Source of the DNA: a virus
Length of the DNA: 39,690 nucleotides
Direction: 5' to 3' (one strand)
IMG/VR virus record: IMGVR_UViG_3300038311_000052
Coordinates: 1-39,690 of that record
This document shows positions 30,577-39,690 of the stretch, piece after piece. The position numbers were made by a program, and so were the translations under genes. Position 1 is the first letter of the stretch. Each line of letters starts with the position of its first letter. The notes beneath the pieces were generated by a model. The model did not search any database and was not told the DNA's origin. It worked only from the letters and a program-made list of their open reading frames with translations.

Positions 30577-31443
30577 CTACACCATCCTGAATGCTTTTTC
30601 GAATCTTGTTAGCTGGAAAGTAGTTAGTAGGCTGCGAATATTATAGACTCGAAGGATATCTGCGAAGTCTTTCAGCTTTATCTGGTCAGGGACACAAAGC
30701 TTCACTGGCTGGGTTTTGTAGAAGGGAAGTGTGACCAGGAGCTTGTTCCTGCTTATGACATCTTTGTGATCTGTGATCTTCTGGTAGGCTGCTGTGGAGA
30801 GCTTTAGATTGCAAGTTAAGTACTTCACGGCGGTCTTCTCTGCCACACCAGGCACACCAGGCACATCATCACTTCCACATCCAGCAATACACTTTACATC
30901 ACCCCATATGCGCGGATGCACTCCCCACTTTTTGAAGAAGGATCTTGGGGTGATGAGTTCTTTGCGGATTGGGTCAAACATATGGGCATCGTCTGAGATG
31001 CACTGGAAGAGGTCGTGGTCACTTGTCAGGAACACTTTCTTCCCGCTATAGTCTTCGCAGATCTTTGCTATCAGGTCATCCCCTTCGACTCCTTCTTGGA
31101 GAAAGCTGTTCTGGCAGCCGATGTATGGCAGAACAACGTCCCTTATCTCATTCAGCTGCTCTATGGCCAGCCTGTCAATCTTTTTATCATCTTCACTTTT
31201 CTCTTTCTTGGCCTTGGCGCGTTTGTGTTTGTAGTCTGGATATATTTCCCTGCGGAAGGACACACGGCTATCCCACACCCACGCCGTCACAATCGGAGAA
31301 AAGCTCTCTACAATAGGCAGGATCTTCTTCATCACAGCAAACAGGATGAATGTTCCAGGGTGCTGTGCATTCATCCTCTTGTCCATATGCTTGGCGGCGG
31401 TGCAGATGAAGTTACCGTCGATGATCACAATGTCGTAAGCCAT
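30577..31443 (-). CDS. 5'-3' exonuclease / flap nuclease (FEN/T4 RNase H-like)
   Basis: ATG 31443 follows AGGAGACCAAA; the open frame further upstream is inside the recombinase gene. The 288-residue enzyme shows DIVIIDGNFICTAAKHMD, WVWDSRVSFRREIYPDYKHK, EGVEGDDLIAKICED, FLTSDHDLFQCIS, and the helix-hairpin-helix-type AGCGSDDVPGVPGVAEKTA. The acidic cluster for two metal ions is intact. It would remove RNA primers and flaps during replication or trim ends in recombination. It overlaps the recombinase gene by 19 bases. Confidence 0.9.
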   Translation of the reverse strand: MAYDIVIIDGNFICTAAKHMDKRMNAQHPGTFILFAVMKKILPIVESFSPIVTAWVWDSRVSFRREIYPDYKHKRAKAKKEKSEDDKKIDRLAIEQLNEIRDVVLPYIGCQNSFLQEGVEGDDLIAKICEDYSGKKVFLTSDHDLFQCISDDAHMFDPIRKELITPRSFFKKWGVHPRIWGDVKCIAGCGSDDVPGVPGVAEKTAVKYLTCNLKLSTAAYQKITDHKDVISRNKLLVTLPFYKTQPVKLCVPDQIKLKDFADILRVYNIRSLLTTFQLTRFEKAFRMV

Positions 31444-32582
31444 TTTGGTCTCCTGTCTGGCTTCAGCCCATCTTCCACTTTCCACCAAAGATCCTCTACG
31501 GCTCCCAGAAGCTGGCTATAGTTATCTTCTTGCTCAAAATATTTGATGGCGTGATCTCGTTCACGGAAAGCCTTTCCGCCTTCTTCAAAGTACTTTTCCA
31601 GTTGTTTTGCTGTTCTTCTTTTCATGTCCAGTGGATAGCCTTTGGCCTCTGGCCCATATAGCCAGTCCAGCATTGATCCGACATCATCTATGCCGTAGTT
31701 GAGAAGAACTTGAAACTCTGCTTCCCTGTAGGGTAGGGCAACTTTGTTGCGTTCAAACCGTCCCACTACCCGCAGCGCATACACCCTCTTTTCCCCCAGG
31801 ACCGTTTTAGGTAATTTGCCTTTCTCGTAAAGCCAGCACACTTGGTGGGTGTAGAAGTTGAGGGCATCTCCTCCAGTCCTGTACTTCTTCTTGCCGAAGG
31901 TGGCATCAATCCGCTGCCGTGTCTGTGATACGATGCCCAGGGTGAAGTCTTTCTGGCCCCCATTTGAGTCTACCATCCGTTTGCACATCGACCTGAAGAA
32001 GGTCCATGCATACCTTTGCTTGTCTAAGTCATATGCCTTTTTTGTGTCTCCTTCACAAGCCTTCTCATCGTCCTTGTCAGGCTGGAGAGCATCCCACGTA
32101 TCAATCAGGTACAGTATGGCTTCGCCTTGCTTCTGCCGCTCCATTCGGCGGAGGATATCTCTGCCCACAGCATCCGGCTGCGCAATGTGCTGCCAGTCAA
32201 TGCTCTTCTCGAAGTCTTCCCCGTACATATCTGCCAACGGGAAATCCATCACGCCTTCAGGGTTGTTGAAGACCACAATGGGCTTCTCTACTGGAGGGAA
32301 AATGGCAGATGGACGGTTTGTGATATTCTTCAAGAACCAGTGTGCCGACTCCAGTGCGGTGATTGTCTTTCCACTGGACCCATCCCCGACAATGTTGAAG
32401 ACCCTGCCACGAGCCCATCCGCCATCTCTCCCCAGGCCACTCCCTGCCAGGTTTAATGTAGTGGAACCGGTGGTGATGAACTCTACACGGCTGGAAGACA
32501 GTTTACGCAAGTTGGAGTAGTCTTCATCCGTTGCCTGTTCAATGCGGCCTTCTGGCTCTTCTGATCTTTTGATTCTTTCCAT
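31425..32582 (-). CDS. uvsX: UvsX/RecA-like recombinase
   Basis: ATG 32582 is chosen because AGGAG precedes it by 9 bases; the longer open frame reads through the end of the SSB gene. The 385-residue protein has Walker A FNIVGDGSSGKT (66-73), a Walker B strand AILYLIDTWDAL near 188, and the loop region LGIVSQTRQRIDATFGKKKY near 245 followed by RTGGDALNFYTHQVCWLYEK. The C-terminus is helical. It catalyses strand exchange on SSB-covered DNA. It lies directly after the gp32-like gene, matching the T4-like recombination group. Confidence 0.92.
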   Translation of the reverse strand: MERIKRSEEPEGRIEQATDEDYSNLRKLSSSRVEFITTGSTTLNLAGSGLGRDGGWARGRVFNIVGDGSSGKTITALESAHWFLKNITNRPSAIFPPVEKPIVVFNNPEGVMDFPLADMYGEDFEKSIDWQHIAQPDAVGRDILRRMERQKQGEAILYLIDTWDALQPDKDDEKACEGDTKKAYDLDKQRYAWTFFRSMCKRMVDSNGGQKDFTLGIVSQTRQRIDATFGKKKYRTGGDALNFYTHQVCWLYEKGKLPKTVLGEKRVYALRVVGRFERNKVALPYREAEFQVLLNYGIDDVGSMLDWLYGPEAKGYPLDMKRRTAKQLEKYFEEGGKAFRERDHAIKYFEQEDNYSQLLGAVEDLWWKVEDGLKPDRRPKWLTTL

Positions 32583-32650: not shown

Positions 32651-34072
32651 CTATTTGGCTATCTGGCGTTTGCGCTCTGCAATCTTCTGCCGCAGACGTT
32701 CTCTCACCGCCGCTTTGTCGTCTTCTCCGGCAGCGGTGGCTCCGCTGGGATTGGAGGAAGGTGCTGCAGATTGTGCAGGGTGCTGGGCCTGTGGGGCTGG
32801 TTGGGCCGGAGTGCTTGCGGCCGTTCTTGTGGCCCTGGCTGGGCGGGCAGGCTTGGTTTCTTTCGCCTCCCGGCACTCTGGCTTGCATGGGCACCACTCA
32901 CAATCCTGCCACTGGTCGTATTCTTTCCCGAAGCAGTCATACTTCGACTGGTCACAGCCTTCTTCTACTGCCGGTTGTTCCTGTGGCTGTGGCTCTGGGT
33001 CTGAAGAGCTGGGGTGTTGTCGGTAGTATTCGGCCTGGCAGTCATTGAAGCTGGCGCACTTTTCACACTCAACATACTTCCCAAAGTCAGTCCCAATAGC
33101 ACAGGTCCCATCATCGGTGACGTTGTCAGGAACATCAGTTTCCGGCACCCTTCGATTAGCAGGAGAGACACTGGCAGGAAGTATGGGAGCACCGAAGCCG
33201 CCGCCACCCGAAACAGGCGGACCAGGAAATGCTGCTTCTGGATCTCCACAGAATGCCCTCCACACATCCAGTGGATCAGGGATCACCAGGATTTCATTGA
33301 AGGGGAGAATGAAGTCAAACAGCTCTTCCGGCAATGGATAGGTTCGATCTGGCACCACATCTACATTCTTGTATTTGATGTTGTATGCCCGTTCACCTGT
33401 CTTCTCCCTGTCAAAGTAGATGGCACAGCCGGTGAACGGGTTTGATACGTCTACCATTGTGTCGGAATCCCTGCGCTTAGAGCGGGAGAGGATGTCTTCA
33501 TAAAGCCCCCATGGGCAGGACATCAACCTAACATTCCACTCCCCATCCTTCTCCAGTTCCTTGAGGTCTTGGACCCAGTAGAGCATCCGCCGTTCAGGGT
33601 AGTATTTTTTGGCCAGATCCTTGTCTTCGTCCCAAAGTTCAGCAGTCTGCTGCTCACAGATTGTGCACCGGCTGCTGATGCTGATGCCGTAGACCCCTGA
33701 GAAGATATCTGCCATCCTGCGCGTGCACAAGTAATCGTGCCGCACAGGGCCGACATTCCTGTGGATGTGTACTTCCAGGCCATAGAACCCCAGCGCAGCC
33801 TTCTCGATTGGAGGGATGATCCTGATAGCATTCTCTCCGTTCTCCGGCAAATACATCTGCACCAGGCTTTGCTGGAGATATGAGACAATTTTGCTATATC
33901 CGCTGCCGGAGTTGCGCTGACCGGCCTGTTCTTTGCGGCCTTGGAGCTTGTCTTGTGGAATGTCAGGAACCTCTGCCCACTTGCTGCTGGCGGCTGGGGC
34001 TGGACGCATGGTGCGAGCGGGTGGAGCTGCTTGCTGTTGTGTTGGTGCTGGCCGTCTTGTTCTTCTCTCCAT
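32651..34072 (-). CDS. gp32-like single-strand DNA-binding protein with Cys-rich extension
   Basis: A 473-residue protein, AAGGAG before ATG 34072. A Pro/Arg-rich start is followed by the gp32-type OB core: GYSKIVSYLQQSLVQMYLPE, ENAIRIIPPIEKAALGF, a zinc site made from His near 102-112 plus C116, C136 and C139 (SSRCTICEQQ), and MLYWVQDLKELEKDGEW. From about residue 330 a new part adds two Cys clusters, TCAIGTDFGKYVECEKCASF and YDCFGKEYDQWQDCEWC, then an Ala/Pro/Gln linker and a basic end (RERLRQKIAERKRQIAK). T4 gp32 is about 300 residues with an acidic tail, so this is longer and ends differently. Confidence 0.87.
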   Translation of the reverse strand: MERRTRRPAPTQQQAAPPARTMRPAPAASSKWAEVPDIPQDKLQGRKEQAGQRNSGSGYSKIVSYLQQSLVQMYLPENGENAIRIIPPIEKAALGFYGLEVHIHRNVGPVRHDYLCTRRMADIFSGVYGISISSRCTICEQQTAELWDEDKDLAKKYYPERRMLYWVQDLKELEKDGEWNVRLMSCPWGLYEDILSRSKRRDSDTMVDVSNPFTGCAIYFDREKTGERAYNIKYKNVDVVPDRTYPLPEELFDFILPFNEILVIPDPLDVWRAFCGDPEAAFPGPPVSGGGGFGAPILPASVSPANRRVPETDVPDNVTDDGTCAIGTDFGKYVECEKCASFNDCQAEYYRQHPSSSDPEPQPQEQPAVEEGCDQSKYDCFGKEYDQWQDCEWCPCKPECREAKETKPARPARATRTAASTPAQPAPQAQHPAQSAAPSSNPSGATAAGEDDKAAVRERLRQKIAERKRQIAK

Positions 34073-34879: not shown

Positions 34880-37800
34880 CTATGGTTTAAGGTGCTTGCC
34901 GTTGTCGAAGAACTCTCCAAACCCCAGCATCATTACTTTCCTGGCAAAATTGTCGATGCCGATGTCAAAGAGTTCTTTGTTGTCTGGGCTGCGGAGAACC
35001 ATAGCAGGGTGCACACACCAGCAGATCCAGCAGTTCCACTCATCACTCCACTGTGTCTTCCCACAAGCTTCGGTGATGCCTGATTCTTCTCCTACCATGG
35101 AGAACCGCGCTTGATTGCCCAGGCCTAATATGAGGAATGGCTGGACGGTTTGTGCTTCTTCCAACAGCCACTTCCGACAAGTTTTGATCTCTGGCTTCTT
35201 GGGAGTCCTGGTCTCAGATGGCCAACACTTACATGTGTTTGTGATGTGAAAGTAGGATCTATCCATACCATACTCAGCCAAAGCCCTCCACAACAGCTCT
35301 CCGCTATCGCCGATGAAGCCTATGCCTTGGCGGTCTTCTTGCCTTCCTGGTGCCTCTCCAACTATCATTATGTTGGCATCGCCTTGTGAGGGAAGAACTA
35401 CTTGAGAGGCTTGGCGCCGGAGAGAACACAGTTTACACTTCTCCATCTCTCGAATCAGGTCTTTGGAAAATTTCTTTGGTTTAGTAGCCATCTCCAGCCC
35501 AAGTCCATTCAGCTCTCCAGCCAATATCTCATCACCAAACCAGCAGTCTTGCCCTTGTATGGCGGTGTCCTTGTGGGGGAAGTTTGCGAGAGAGAGCAGC
35601 CATTGGTTTTGGCAGTGTTCAATCTCTTCCTTGCGGCGTTTGTAGAGAGGAGTTGTGAAGATGTGCATAAGAAAGTCTGTGTCATCCTTCAAGTAGCAGT
35701 ACACACCACCCATGCTCCCCTTCGAGTCAGAAGCCAAGTTCTCACGATACCCGATGACCAGCCTTTCAATCTCTCCAAAGTAAAAGTGAAGATCCTTGGA
35801 AGTGCCGCCGTGGTCTGCCACCGATTTCAGATCATCGATGGCGAAGAACTCTCTCAGCCGCGCCATCACCTTCCTGAACTTGTACTGTGGGTCATTGGAG
35901 AGCCTGAAGTTGAATAGGACCGAAAGCTGCTCCAGCTCTGCTTCGGACAAGTGTTCACACTCAGTCGTCATAGAGAAGGCTTTACAGTCAGCCAATAGTC
36001 TCCGCACCTTCGCATTACACTTCCGCTTATCTACTCTTCTCTCAAAGTCTGCATACCCGTCAAACTCACCCTTTTCCCTTTCTTCCATTATTGCATCAAC
36101 CGCCACCTGGCCGACGCCTTTGATTTCCTTGAGCGGGATGAGAAGAGTGTCCTTTTTGTTTGGCATCGCCTTCCACATTATCCCATCAGAGAAGTTGATT
36201 TGCGGCATGGCAATCTTCAGCCCAAGCCTTCGCGCCTCTTCAAGATATTGAGCTGACTTGCTGTCTACGCCAACGGATAGCTGGGCTATGATGAACTCGG
36301 CAGGGTAGTGAACCTTCAGCCACATCTGCCAATAAGCAATGTAAGCGTATTCTGCGGCGTGGGCTTTGTTGAACCCGTAGTTACCAAAGTACTTCAGGTC
36401 ATCAAACAGCTTTCTCGCATCCGCCTCACCAAGTGTTCCCTTCTCCAAGCACCCATCCACAAACTGCTGTTCAAACTCCATGATCTTCTCTACACCTTTG
36501 GACTTGGAGACAACTTTGCGGACTGCATCAGCTACTTTCCACGGGAACCCTCCCAGCTCATACAGCATCCGCATGATTTGCTCTTGGTATAGGATGATGC
36601 CATAGGTCTCTTGAGTTAGTCTCTTCACAAAATCATTCAGATATGTGGTAGGCTCCTTACCGTGCTTGCGCTTCTCGTATGTGTTCACAAGGCCAGACCG
36701 TAAACACCCTGGCCGGTGGAGGGCATTCAGTGCAATCACTGCTTCAAAGTCTTCAATGCCGATGTCGCGGCAGATTTTGATCATCGACTCAGAACCAAAC
36801 TGAAAGACGCCGGTGTTGTTGCCTTGGGAAAACTGCTCGAAGACTTTTGGATCATCCATCGGTAAGGTCTCCAAGTCTACATCTACACCGTGGTTCTCCT
36901 CTATCATCTTCAGACACTCCGACAGCACCGTCAGAGCATTCAGGCCCAGCACATCCAGCTTCATCAGGCCCATATACTCTGCATCCTCCTTCTCCCAGTT
37001 ACAGCACAGCACTCCACCCTTCCGCTGGACATAGTTGGCATTCTTGCCAAGCCGAAGATCTTCAGCCGACACACACATTGCGGCTGCGTGCTGACCGGAA
37101 TTGGATATCTGTCCTTCCAGCTCCATTGCTATCTTGGTGACTTGGGGGTACTTCTCCTTGAACTTCCTACCATCTTCAAAGGCAGAGAAGGCATCTTCGA
37201 TGGTGAAGTCTGCACGGATATCTCCACCAGACCGTGTCACAATACAGTCGCAGGCGCGGCTAACATCCATTATCGGGACATCAAACACCCGCGCCACAGA
37301 GCGGATGGCAGCTTTTCCCTTCATCCTTGCAAAGGTGCTGACGCCGACGACATTGTTGCTCCCATAAAGCTCTTCAAGGTGTTCACGAATGAGGTGGCGC
37401 TTGCGGTCTTCGAAGTCCATGTCGATATCAGGAAGGTCTATGCGTGCAGGGGATATGAACCTGGAGAACACAAGATCATACTTCAGTGGGTCCACCATAG
37501 TGATCCCAAGGCAATATGCCACCAGACTCCCGCCGACACTTCCTCTTCCCGGCCCACACATAATATCATTCGCTTTACACCAGTTTATCAACTCCCACAC
37601 AATCAGGAAGTATCTGGAGAAGCCCAACGGGATAATATGCTCCAGCTCCTCTACTACCCTCTCTTCATAGGTGTCAAAATTATGGGCTATGGATGGATGT
37701 TTAAGTGCTTTCACCCGAAGCCCATCCAAGGCCAGCTCCATTATCTGCTCATCTTCGGGGAGGTGCTTATAATGCGGCACCACCACTTTCGGCAGAAGTA

Positions 37801-38623
37801 CAGGTCTCTTCTCTACTGTAAGGTTGCACAAGTCTACAACCTTTTGTGTGTTGGATATGGCTTCTTCTATCTCTGAGTTGGAGAGGATGGCTTGGCGGCG
37901 GAAGGCTGCTTTCATTTCCTCTTCGCTTCGCAAGTAGAGTTCATCTGTGTCAAACCTGAAGCGATCAGTATCATTCCATCGCTTCTTAAACTGGATGGCC
38001 AGAAGTACTTCTTGTGACACTGAGTGCTCCCTCTTCACGTAGTGGCAGTCATTTGTGGCAACCAAATCTCCGCCATAATTCCTCTTCAGCTGTAGTACCA
38101 GCTTGTTCATCTCTTTTTGCGGGTCAAAGATCAGTGGCATCACCTCAAGAAATATTGGCACACCCCACTGCCGCAGCTCCCGATATATCTGGACTCCACC
38201 TTCCATCTTCAAGAAGGAAAAACTACAGCCGGTGAGGATGGCTATCCCTTCGGCATGCTCATAGAGCAGGTCTGGGTCGATGCGCGGCCGCTTGTAGAAT
38301 CCCTGTGTGTTAGCATAGGTAAGCATCTTCAGGCAGTTCTCAAAGCCTTTCTCATTCCGGCACAGTATGGTCATATGCCACCGGTTAGTATTTTCCTTGT
38401 CTACCATATTCGGCACAATGTAGGCTTCGAACCCCAGCACCGGCTTCAAACCTGCATCCTTACAGGCTTTCTGCCATTTAATCACTCCATCCATATTGCC
38501 GTGATTGGTGAGGCCGATAGACTTCATGCCCAGTTCTACAGCTCGTGCACAAAAGTCTTCAGCCTTCCCCATCCCATCTAACTGTGAATACTGATCATGA
38601 ATGTGAAGATGAGTAAATGCCAT
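34880..38623 (-). CDS. dnaE: DNA polymerase III alpha fused to family-4-like uracil-DNA glycosylase
   Basis: ATG 38623 has GGAGG upstream and a TGATG overlap with the HAD gene. The 1247-residue chain starts with a PHP domain (FTHLHIHDQYSQLDG, IGLTNHGNMDG, VLGFEAYI, TNDCHYV). The C-family polymerase core follows: MCGPGRGSVGGSLVAYCLG, the catalytic LPDIDMDFED, a third aspartate in GLMKLDVLGLNALTVL, and GVFQFGSESM. After a probable OB region, the last ~197 residues are a family-4-like uracil-DNA glycosylase: CKLCSLRRQ, MIVGEAPGRQEDRQG, TCKCWPSETRTPKKPEI, KTCRKWL and VHPAMVL. Four cysteines spaced as in Fe-S enzymes are present. The usual tau- and clamp-binding tail is not evident. Confidence 0.92.
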   Translation of the reverse strand: MAFTHLHIHDQYSQLDGMGKAEDFCARAVELGMKSIGLTNHGNMDGVIKWQKACKDAGLKPVLGFEAYIVPNMVDKENTNRWHMTILCRNEKGFENCLKMLTYANTQGFYKRPRIDPDLLYEHAEGIAILTGCSFSFLKMEGGVQIYRELRQWGVPIFLEVMPLIFDPQKEMNKLVLQLKRNYGGDLVATNDCHYVKREHSVSQEVLLAIQFKKRWNDTDRFRFDTDELYLRSEEEMKAAFRRQAILSNSEIEEAISNTQKVVDLCNLTVEKRPVLLPKVVVPHYKHLPEDEQIMELALDGLRVKALKHPSIAHNFDTYEERVVEELEHIIPLGFSRYFLIVWELINWCKANDIMCGPGRGSVGGSLVAYCLGITMVDPLKYDLVFSRFISPARIDLPDIDMDFEDRKRHLIREHLEELYGSNNVVGVSTFARMKGKAAIRSVARVFDVPIMDVSRACDCIVTRSGGDIRADFTIEDAFSAFEDGRKFKEKYPQVTKIAMELEGQISNSGQHAAAMCVSAEDLRLGKNANYVQRKGGVLCCNWEKEDAEYMGLMKLDVLGLNALTVLSECLKMIEENHGVDVDLETLPMDDPKVFEQFSQGNNTGVFQFGSESMIKICRDIGIEDFEAVIALNALHRPGCLRSGLVNTYEKRKHGKEPTTYLNDFVKRLTQETYGIILYQEQIMRMLYELGGFPWKVADAVRKVVSKSKGVEKIMEFEQQFVDGCLEKGTLGEADARKLFDDLKYFGNYGFNKAHAAEYAYIAYWQMWLKVHYPAEFIIAQLSVGVDSKSAQYLEEARRLGLKIAMPQINFSDGIMWKAMPNKKDTLLIPLKEIKGVGQVAVDAIMEEREKGEFDGYADFERRVDKRKCNAKVRRLLADCKAFSMTTECEHLSEAELEQLSVLFNFRLSNDPQYKFRKVMARLREFFAIDDLKSVADHGGTSKDLHFYFGEIERLVIGYRENLASDSKGSMGGVYCYLKDDTDFLMHIFTTPLYKRRKEEIEHCQNQWLLSLANFPHKDTAIQGQDCWFGDEILAGELNGLGLEMATKPKKFSKDLIREMEKCKLCSLRRQASQVVLPSQGDANIMIVGEAPGRQEDRQGIGFIGDSGELLWRALAEYGMDRSYFHITNTCKCWPSETRTPKKPEIKTCRKWLLEEAQTVQPFLILGLGNQARFSMVGEESGITEACGKTQWSDEWNCWICWCVHPAMVLRSPDNKELFDIGIDNFARKVMMLGFGEFFDNGKHLKP

Positions 38624-39108
38624 CACTTCCTCCACCAGACCTTAAAGTTTTCAATTCTCTCCAGCGTGTCAGACCAGTCTCCTCTGAAGGGGATGTTGCG
38701 GTCATCGATGTAGATATCAGCAAGAACTTTTGTAGGGCTCAACTCCAGGCGGATGTTGTCGGGATTGTGGTTGATGTAGTCATATGGGATCTCCCACTTG
38801 TGGAGATATTCGCGGATCTGTAGTACTTCTGACCTGGTGGTGTTGATGATTATGGTGTGGCCTCTCTGCTTGAGAAGAGTTATGGAGAGTGCGGCACCGG
38901 GGATGGGCGGCTCAAACACTCCCTTGCCCATCCACCCGCTGTAGCTGTTGATAACACCATCGAAGTCAATGGCTATTGTCTTCGGCCTTGAAGACTTTCC
39001 TGCCGCCACTTGGAGCTTGGTGCACTCCTCATCCATACAAAATGGGCCTTCATCAGGGTCCGCATGAAAACAATGGCGCGGGCAAGATGTGTCGTAGCAC
39101 TCAATCAT
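38623..39108 (-). CDS. HAD-superfamily phosphatase with N-terminal Cys cluster
   Basis: A 161-residue protein, AAGGAGATAAAAG before ATG 39108. HAD motifs are present: TIAIDFDGVINSYSGW (DxD nucleophile), HTIIINTTRSEVLQIREYL (motif II Thr), and PTKVLADIYIDDRNIPF (Lys and the DD of motif IV). The first 40 residues hold five cysteines (CYDTSCPRHCFHADPDEG, then CMDEEC), a probable zinc module. Small phage HAD proteins of this type may act on deoxynucleotides or DNA 3'/5' phosphates. Being co-translated with the polymerase, it could act in nucleotide supply or DNA end processing. Confidence 0.82.
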   Translation of the reverse strand: MIECYDTSCPRHCFHADPDEGPFCMDEECTKLQVAAGKSSRPKTIAIDFDGVINSYSGWMGKGVFEPPIPGAALSITLLKQRGHTIIINTTRSEVLQIREYLHKWEIPYDYINHNPDNIRLELSPTKVLADIYIDDRNIPFRGDWSDTLERIENFKVWWRK

Positions 39109-39182: not shown

Positions 39183-39690
39183 CTATTGGCCGCCTGTCAT
39201 ATCTAAAGTGTGGCCAGTCACATAATCCGGCATATTGATCAGCTTCAAAACTGCTTCGGCAACTTCTTCTCTGGTAGTCCAACGGTGCATCGGGACAAGG
39301 CTTTTGGCGTACTTCTCTGCTTGGTTGCCGCCCCAGCCACGAAGGTCCAGCACTTGCTGGTTTGTCCTATGGGACATCTCTGTATCTTCAATAAGGCCTG
39401 GAGCAATAGCATTCACAATTACTGTAGGGGCCAGCTCCCGTGCCATAACCTTAGTGAGATGAGAGAGGCCAGCTTTGCTTGCGCAGTAGGCAGAGGTGCA
39501 CCGTTGGGCCACCCGATACGTCTGAGAGGAAATGTTGATGATTCGGATTGAACGATATATTGGTGATGCAGGCTGGTAGTTGCGCACTAAGGCATCCACT
39601 ACCATCAAAGGCCACTTCAGGTTCTTGTCGATGATGTCGAAATGTTCTTTCCCCAGCGTACCGATCCACCCCAGCTTATTGATGCCAAAA
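39183..39690 (-). CDS. Short-chain dehydrogenase/reductase (5' end outside window)
   Basis: The frame is open to the right edge, so the gene begins beyond it and 168 C-terminal residues are visible. They contain SDR landmarks: FGINKLGWIGTLGKEHFD with the NAG-like strand region before it, ISSQTYRVAQRCTSAYCASK with active-site Ser and the YxxxK pair, NAIAPGLIEDTEM, and the C-terminal YVTGHTLDMTGGQ. The Rossmann GxxxGxG is expected upstream. SDRs are rare in phage replication operons; this one may act on a nucleotide sugar or modified base precursor, but the substrate cannot be read from sequence. Confidence 0.85.
   Translation of the reverse strand, partial: FGINKLGWIGTLGKEHFDIIDKNLKWPLMVVDALVRNYQPASPIYRSIRIINISSQTYRVAQRCTSAYCASKAGLSHLTKVMARELAPTVIVNAIAPGLIEDTEMSHRTNQQVLDLRGWGGNQAEKYAKSLVPMHRWTTREEVAEAVLKLINMPDYVTGHTLDMTGGQ

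Follow-up and report, generated by a model that had tools for sequence, protein, structure and literature searches.

A tailed-phage DNA polymerase III alpha chain with a C-terminal family-4-type uracil-DNA glycosylase domain

Uracil repair usually reaches the replication fork via separate proteins. A gene in a viral DNA stretch of 39,690 nucleotides (IMG/VR record IMGVR_UViG_3300038311_000052, referred to here as the window) raises the question of whether a phage replicative polymerase can carry its own uracil-DNA glycosylase (UDG), whether such a domain is likely to be active and how the arrangement arose. Its major head and tape measure proteins identify the window virus as a tailed phage. 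The gene and its polymerase domains are as follows.

34880-38623, minus strand: DnaE-UDG fusion gene (open frame, TIGR00594 and Pfam domains)
37750-38623 (end approximate), minus strand: PHP domain (Pfam PF02811 at residues 5-137)
36437-37681, minus strand: palm, thumb and fingers (PF07733 at residues 315-560, PF17657 at residues 564-729)
35969-36223, minus strand: helix-hairpin-helix (HhH) domain (PF14579, residues 801-885)

An earlier note on this DNA gave coordinates, length and motifs that were correct on re-reading, but did not mention that the gene is encoded on the minus strand. The frame was uninterrupted for 1247 codons from an ATG at 38623 (1251 from an alternative GTG at 38635, 12 bases upstream) and GC content was level throughout, at 0.496 in the DnaE part and 0.496 in the UDG part. 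Domains were ordered PHP, family-C palm and fingers, HhH, a predicted OB-like domain and a C-terminal UDG, and matches to the Pfam models for PHP, DNA_pol3_alpha, DNA_pol3_finger, HHH_6 and UDG (PF03167) were each above the model cut-off. The chain scored 799 bits against TIGR00594 for DNA polymerase III alpha (cut-off 434) and below the cut-offs of the DnaE equivalog models. The nine PHP metal-binding residues (H7, H9, D16, H41, E66, H83, C133, D192 and H194) and the catalytic polymerase aspartates D399, D401 and D557 were all present and did not vary among ten aligned sequences. The domains above cut-off and these residues bear out the single frame with an intact PHP and DnaE core described previously, and the features of DnaE-type family-C polymerases, namely PHP, palm, fingers and HhH in order and three aspartates, were all found. 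A DnaE1-type tau-binding C-terminal domain after the OB was absent, the C-terminus being occupied by the UDG.

35537-35800, minus strand: OB-like domain (residues ~942-1029, AlphaFold2 model and weak profile match)

The segment preceding the UDG seems to be OB-like, as judged by a model and a weak profile match. Pfam gave no match for this region, which was modelled by AlphaFold2 as five strands with intervening helices in front of the UDG and had a weak in-register profile match to the OB domain of E. coli DnaE (E 0.0055).

34883-35479, minus strand: family-4-type UDG tail (residues 1049-1247; PF03167 core 34973-35380)
35354-35356, minus strand: E1090 of GEAPGRQED, the Thermus thermophilus motif-1 Glu in the 1ui0 alignment, with E1096 and F1103 downstream
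35237-35239, minus strand: N1129 of ITN, uracil-pocket Asn (1ui0 alignment)
35009-35011, minus strand: H1205 of HPA, catalytic-pocket His (1ui0 alignment)
35177-35437 (span), minus strand: Fe-S cysteines C1063, C1066, C1133 and C1149 (1ui0 alignment)

The tail matched PF03167 at residues 1082-1217 (E 7.7e-25), and the best solved match by sequence was the T. thermophilus UDG, 1ui0 (4.7e-27). The CKLC, GEAPGRQED, KCWP...TC (C-to-C spacing of 16) and HPAMVL motifs noted previously aligned with this enzyme, as did the ITN motif. The tail has the features of family-4 UDGs, including a four-cysteine Fe-S site, motif 1 of the form GE(G/A)PG..E, the pocket F and N, and an HP motif, and every UDG residue checked in the window chain was intact. 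The Pfam match and the 1ui0 alignment thereby uphold the proposed fusion of DnaE to an Fe-S UDG, here with active-site residues intact. The domain is described as family-4-type because its score of 116.1 bits against the curated family-4 model TIGR00758 was below the 125.3 cut-off, although that of the PF03167 superfamily was passed. Assignment to the UDG fold and not another was reached by profile and by predicted structure, as an AlphaFold2 model of residues 861-1247 built from 25 sequences (mean pLDDT 87, pTM 0.85) had a UDG part that Foldseek placed on T. thermophilus 1ui1 at TM 0.88 and rmsd 1.6 A. The domain thus shares with the T. thermophilus family-4 UDG (1ui0/1ui1) its fold, Fe-S cysteines, motif 1 and N80 and H155 equivalents, whereas the latter is a stand-alone enzyme.

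Conservation was concentrated in this domain. In a tail alignment of 25 sequences with 31% mean identity, all twenty invariant columns (20/20) fell inside the UDG. Equivalents of E41, E47, F54 and H155 were present in 29/29 DnaE-UDG relatives, N80 in 28/29 and the Fe-S cysteines in 28-29/29, in a set recruited by UDG motif with patterns that contained the motif-1 Glu and the Asn and hence biased towards intact domains. The Fe-S cysteines were conserved in nearly all intact relatives.

A covalent uracil binder like UdgX of Mycobacterium smegmatis was considered and rejected. Superfamily, fold and Fe-S cluster are shared with UdgX, but the KRRIH loop with His109 is absent, the window has GEAPG where UdgX has GEQPG, and the UdgX model score was 120.5 bits against a cut-off of 189.95.

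Relatives were found widely among uncultured phages. An IMG/VR scan with the UDG alignment returned 80 loci. DnaE chains with the UDG at the C-terminus made up nearly all of those most like the window, and the others were mostly family A polymerases (PolA) that have it at the N-terminus. The same family was recovered by a second scan in which only the DnaE core served as query, so that the UDG had no influence on recruitment. The two scans combined gave 46 contigs with DnaE and a C-terminal UDG in one frame, a count that takes in three degenerate chains and a few near-identical pairs, and a motif scan added seven more, so the search for phage DnaE proteins with the same tail, as the earlier note had advised, yielded about 50 further IMG/VR contigs overall. 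The closest relatives were 40-55% identical to the window in the UDG part and came from independent contigs of many metagenomes. Exact 8-mer pattern scans of IMG/VR with a single protein found no relative where alignment-based scans succeeded, and a megablast of the window replication region against the phage collection also found none. The lineage motif KCWPSxTxTP identified DnaE and UDG in one frame in 15/20 viral matches, and the 62 stretches matched in bacterial and archaeal genomes by exact-match scan included no DnaE-UDG. This exact-match scan gave no sign of a host copy of the window's sublineage. The best UDG matches among plasmids included no intact-type DnaE-UDG by annotation.

The probability that an error of assembly or reading frame has joined two genes is negligible. 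The UDG part was in a different frame from DnaE in two contigs (L116 and L135), probably through sequencing indels, although these may be real splits. A chance join was rejected by the recurrence of the same fusion in independent assemblies, with one open frame in about 50 other contigs that come from different metagenomes and a degenerate form present in cultured phages. Several chains in the family had additional segments: intein-like in-frame inserts were observed in the DnaE-UDG genes of L028, L041 and L072, several of them in L041 and some with HNH-like stretches, and an extra cysteine-containing tail of about 50 residues followed the UDG in L035, L106 and L130.

A tree of 65 DnaE cores, made by a quick search without bootstrap, placed all C-terminal DnaE-UDG chains in one clade (48 rows, SH-aLRT 95), with L024, L034 and L027 as neighbours of the window. 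Inside this clade, two lineages (L107-L113 and L120/L121) lacked a UDG both behind the polymerase and in the rest of the contigs examined. A subclade (SH-aLRT 95) of SSU5, Cyrano, RHEph10, V1VFA-S, ANB28, hairong, nickie and L132/L136/L164 consisted of chains with degenerate UDG domains. One fusion, two domain losses and one loss of catalysis would account for this most simply. The fusion, its recurrence, the intact residues at three sites and the placement in a single polymerase clade were demonstrated by sequence comparison and modelling.

Joining of a UDG to a polymerase has been repeated, at the C-terminus of DnaE, at the N-terminus of DnaE and at the N-terminus of PolA. The N-terminal DnaE form (L162:3808-7827) is a phage chain whose DnaE is unrelated to the window's clade, and the fusion looks independent because its UDG clusters with stand-alone enzymes in the UDG tree. 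The L131/L138 lineage has an unfused DnaE and a separate UDG gene. Family A phage polymerases with an N-terminal UDG include those of PaBG, described as PolA-UDG, and the Lupandier group (PMC7412058), SPO1/SP8 and Thermus phage phiLo (structure 9qhs). These resemble the window in having a UDG4-type domain on a phage polymerase, and the metagenomic members have mostly kept its catalytic residues, but the polymerase family is unrelated, the domain is at the opposite terminus and the UDGs are apart from those of DnaE in the tree. The window chain is not such a polymerase.

Contrary to the earlier suggestion, the architecture is not new in kind, since both DnaE-UDG and PolA-UDG fusions are published. 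Nor is the DnaE-UDG chain undescribed: Timinskas et al. 2014 reported that a UDG (PF03167) replaces the OB and C-terminal domains of DnaE in certain strains of Yersinia pestis and Salmonella enterica, in a passage that does not comment on activity (PMC3919608), and a GenBank note on Rhizobium phage RHEph10 gp048 reads 'uracil-DNA glycosylase-like'. We infer that this DnaEX-UDG variant is the DnaE of SSU5-type phage-plasmids. As in the window, its PHP-Pol3-HhH chain has a PF03167 UDG at the end, and SSU5-type DnaEs belong to the same DnaE clade (SH-aLRT 95) and are encoded near genes for SSB, 5'-3' exonuclease and RecA. In contrast to the window, in which both sites are intact and an OB-like domain (by model and weak profile match) seems to precede the UDG, the SSU5-type chains have lost the UDG and PHP sites and the UDG directly follows the HhH. 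No earlier account was found of the intact OB-containing form, the active-site loss or the single origin, in a literature search that left most subscription papers outside; the main text of a 2026 survey of bacterial polymerases did not include uracil or UDG (PMC12926913).

The degenerate chains bear on what the domain is for. The SSU5-type and L132/L136/L164 lineages kept the UDG domain after its catalytic residues were gone, and the pocket residues F, N and H were also missing. PHP metal residues were intact in the window's relatives and in degenerate L132 and L136, and were lost in SSU5, RHEph10, hairong and ANB28, the same four being without a UDG site. As read from the aligned residues, the SSU5-type branch is one in which both editing sites are lost and the polymerase aspartates retained. 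Its tail was found in at least 900 plasmid records (913 in PLSDB), mostly of Klebsiella, Escherichia and Acinetobacter and also Enterobacter, whose annotations call it just DnaE or UDG. A NUMOD4-domain gene splits dnaE in Acinetobacter baumannii plasmid p5671_1 (L268:35-4278), and there the UDG part is annotated as a separate UDG protein.

Since a whole subclade kept the fold after losing catalytic residues, excision is not the only way in which the domain can be of use, and the persistence of a dead domain suggests a second use of the fold, probably in DNA binding or chain cohesion. The two lineages that dispense with the domain also count against an active UDG. The main task of the fold might even be to bind DNA or to give the replicase processivity, as vaccinia D4 does in its polymerase complex, with excision secondary or dispensable. 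Its retention in degenerate lineages and in the many plasmid records is consistent with such a role, as are the still UDG-like model of the L136 domain (TM 0.77 to UDG structures at a mean pLDDT of only 66) and the catalysis-independent replication role of the vaccinia UDG (PMC1936997). This reading is nevertheless unlikely for the window: across its lineage, no columns of the tail are better conserved than those of the catalytic and Fe-S residues, a pattern that pure binding would not need.

It is considerably less probable that the domain senses uracil and makes synthesis stall or slow down on uracil templates in the manner of the archaeal family-B read-ahead pocket. The domain is physically joined to a polymerase, UDG folds bind flipped uracil and partly changed relatives could be pure binders; in the unbiased DnaE-only scan most UDGs were intact, four (L117, L123, L127 and L128) were partly changed and L132, L136 and L164 were degenerate. 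The loss of activity on which the sensor had been made conditional does not apply to the window, in which the catalytic residues do not differ and a bound uracil should be cut, and the loss of F, N and H in the degenerate relatives argues against retained uracil binding there.

Replication genes located downstream of dnaE on the same strand include the following.

32651-34072, minus strand: gp32-like SSB (Pfam and PHROGs)
31428-32543, minus strand: UvsX/RecA-like recombinase (Pfam and PHROGs)
30577-31488, minus strand: 5'-3' exonuclease (Pfam)

A PDDEXK nuclease and an SbcC/SbcD-like pair were also downstream, and a comparable set (SSB, 5'-3' exonuclease and RecA) follows dnaE in SSU5-type phages by annotated neighbours. 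The dnaE ATG shares one base with the stop of the upstream gene (38623-39108, minus strand), which encodes a small HAD-type phosphatase-like protein whose PHROG match is named phosphoheptose isomerase. A short-chain dehydrogenase fragment (39183-39689, minus strand) is located at the window edge, and a FabG-like gene is also found just upstream of dnaE in Mycobacterium phage Gumball.

The fused domain was the only UDG match in the window, and no second UDG was identified in the 28 contigs and genomes searched. ThyX was present in 12/26 contigs of relatives and a dUTPase (PF00692) in 1/31 contigs with an intact C-terminal fusion, these contigs being fragments in which absence is weak evidence. 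A search for the Endo IV family of AP endonucleases found none in 22 contigs. A role in excluding uracil from phage DNA fits the conservation of the UDG site, the missing second UDG, the ThyX genes and the rarity of dUTPase. Uracil DNA is used by some phages (PMC7824862) and DNA glycosylases act in phage-host conflict (PMC11078745), so the UDG could instead target foreign or host uracil DNA, as a counter-defence or to exclude phages with uracil in their DNA. Such a target is very improbable: a UDG joined to the replicase is expected to work at the fork of its own phage, and the ThyX encoded by many relatives suggests DNA made with thymine.

The UDG is probably active, removing uracil near the fork and keeping the phage genome uracil-free. 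The phage's replicative DNA polymerase III alpha would then have three active sites on one polypeptide, namely those of the polymerase, of a 3'-5' exonuclease of the PHP type and, behind the OB-like domain, of a family-4-type UDG. Family-4 UDGs excise uracil from both single- and double-stranded DNA. Tethered to the fork through the polymerase, and perhaps coupled to synthesis, a catalytically active domain may excise uracil derived from dUTP misincorporation or deaminated cytosine from DNA newly made or about to be copied, with a host AP endonuclease presumably helping to complete repair. Mainly post-replicative removal of misincorporated dUMP would be expected because cutting a single-stranded template ahead of the polymerase leaves an AP site in its path; UNG2 tethered to PCNA is described as acting in post-replicative uracil removal (PMC8053108). 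UNG2-PCNA and vaccinia D4 UDG-A20 similarly tether a UDG to a replication machine, but as a family 1 UDG on a separate chain in eukaryotic systems. As the sole detectable phage UDG, the domain would guard the genome against uracil alongside the ThyX of many relatives.

More tentatively, the chain may be a self-editing replicase in which polymerization, PHP proofreading and uracil excision occur in cis inside the replisome, and the SSU5-type chains its descendants with both editing sites dead and the folds kept. A polymerase with its own apparently active UDG and PHP exonuclease would make the coupling of repair to synthesis testable on one purified protein, and the degenerate relatives are worth examining for the sensor idea. 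A polymerase with a built-in UDG, or a dead relative, could help handle uracil in PCR and sequencing. The odd tail in the plasmid records would be explained as a dead UDG descended from an active one.
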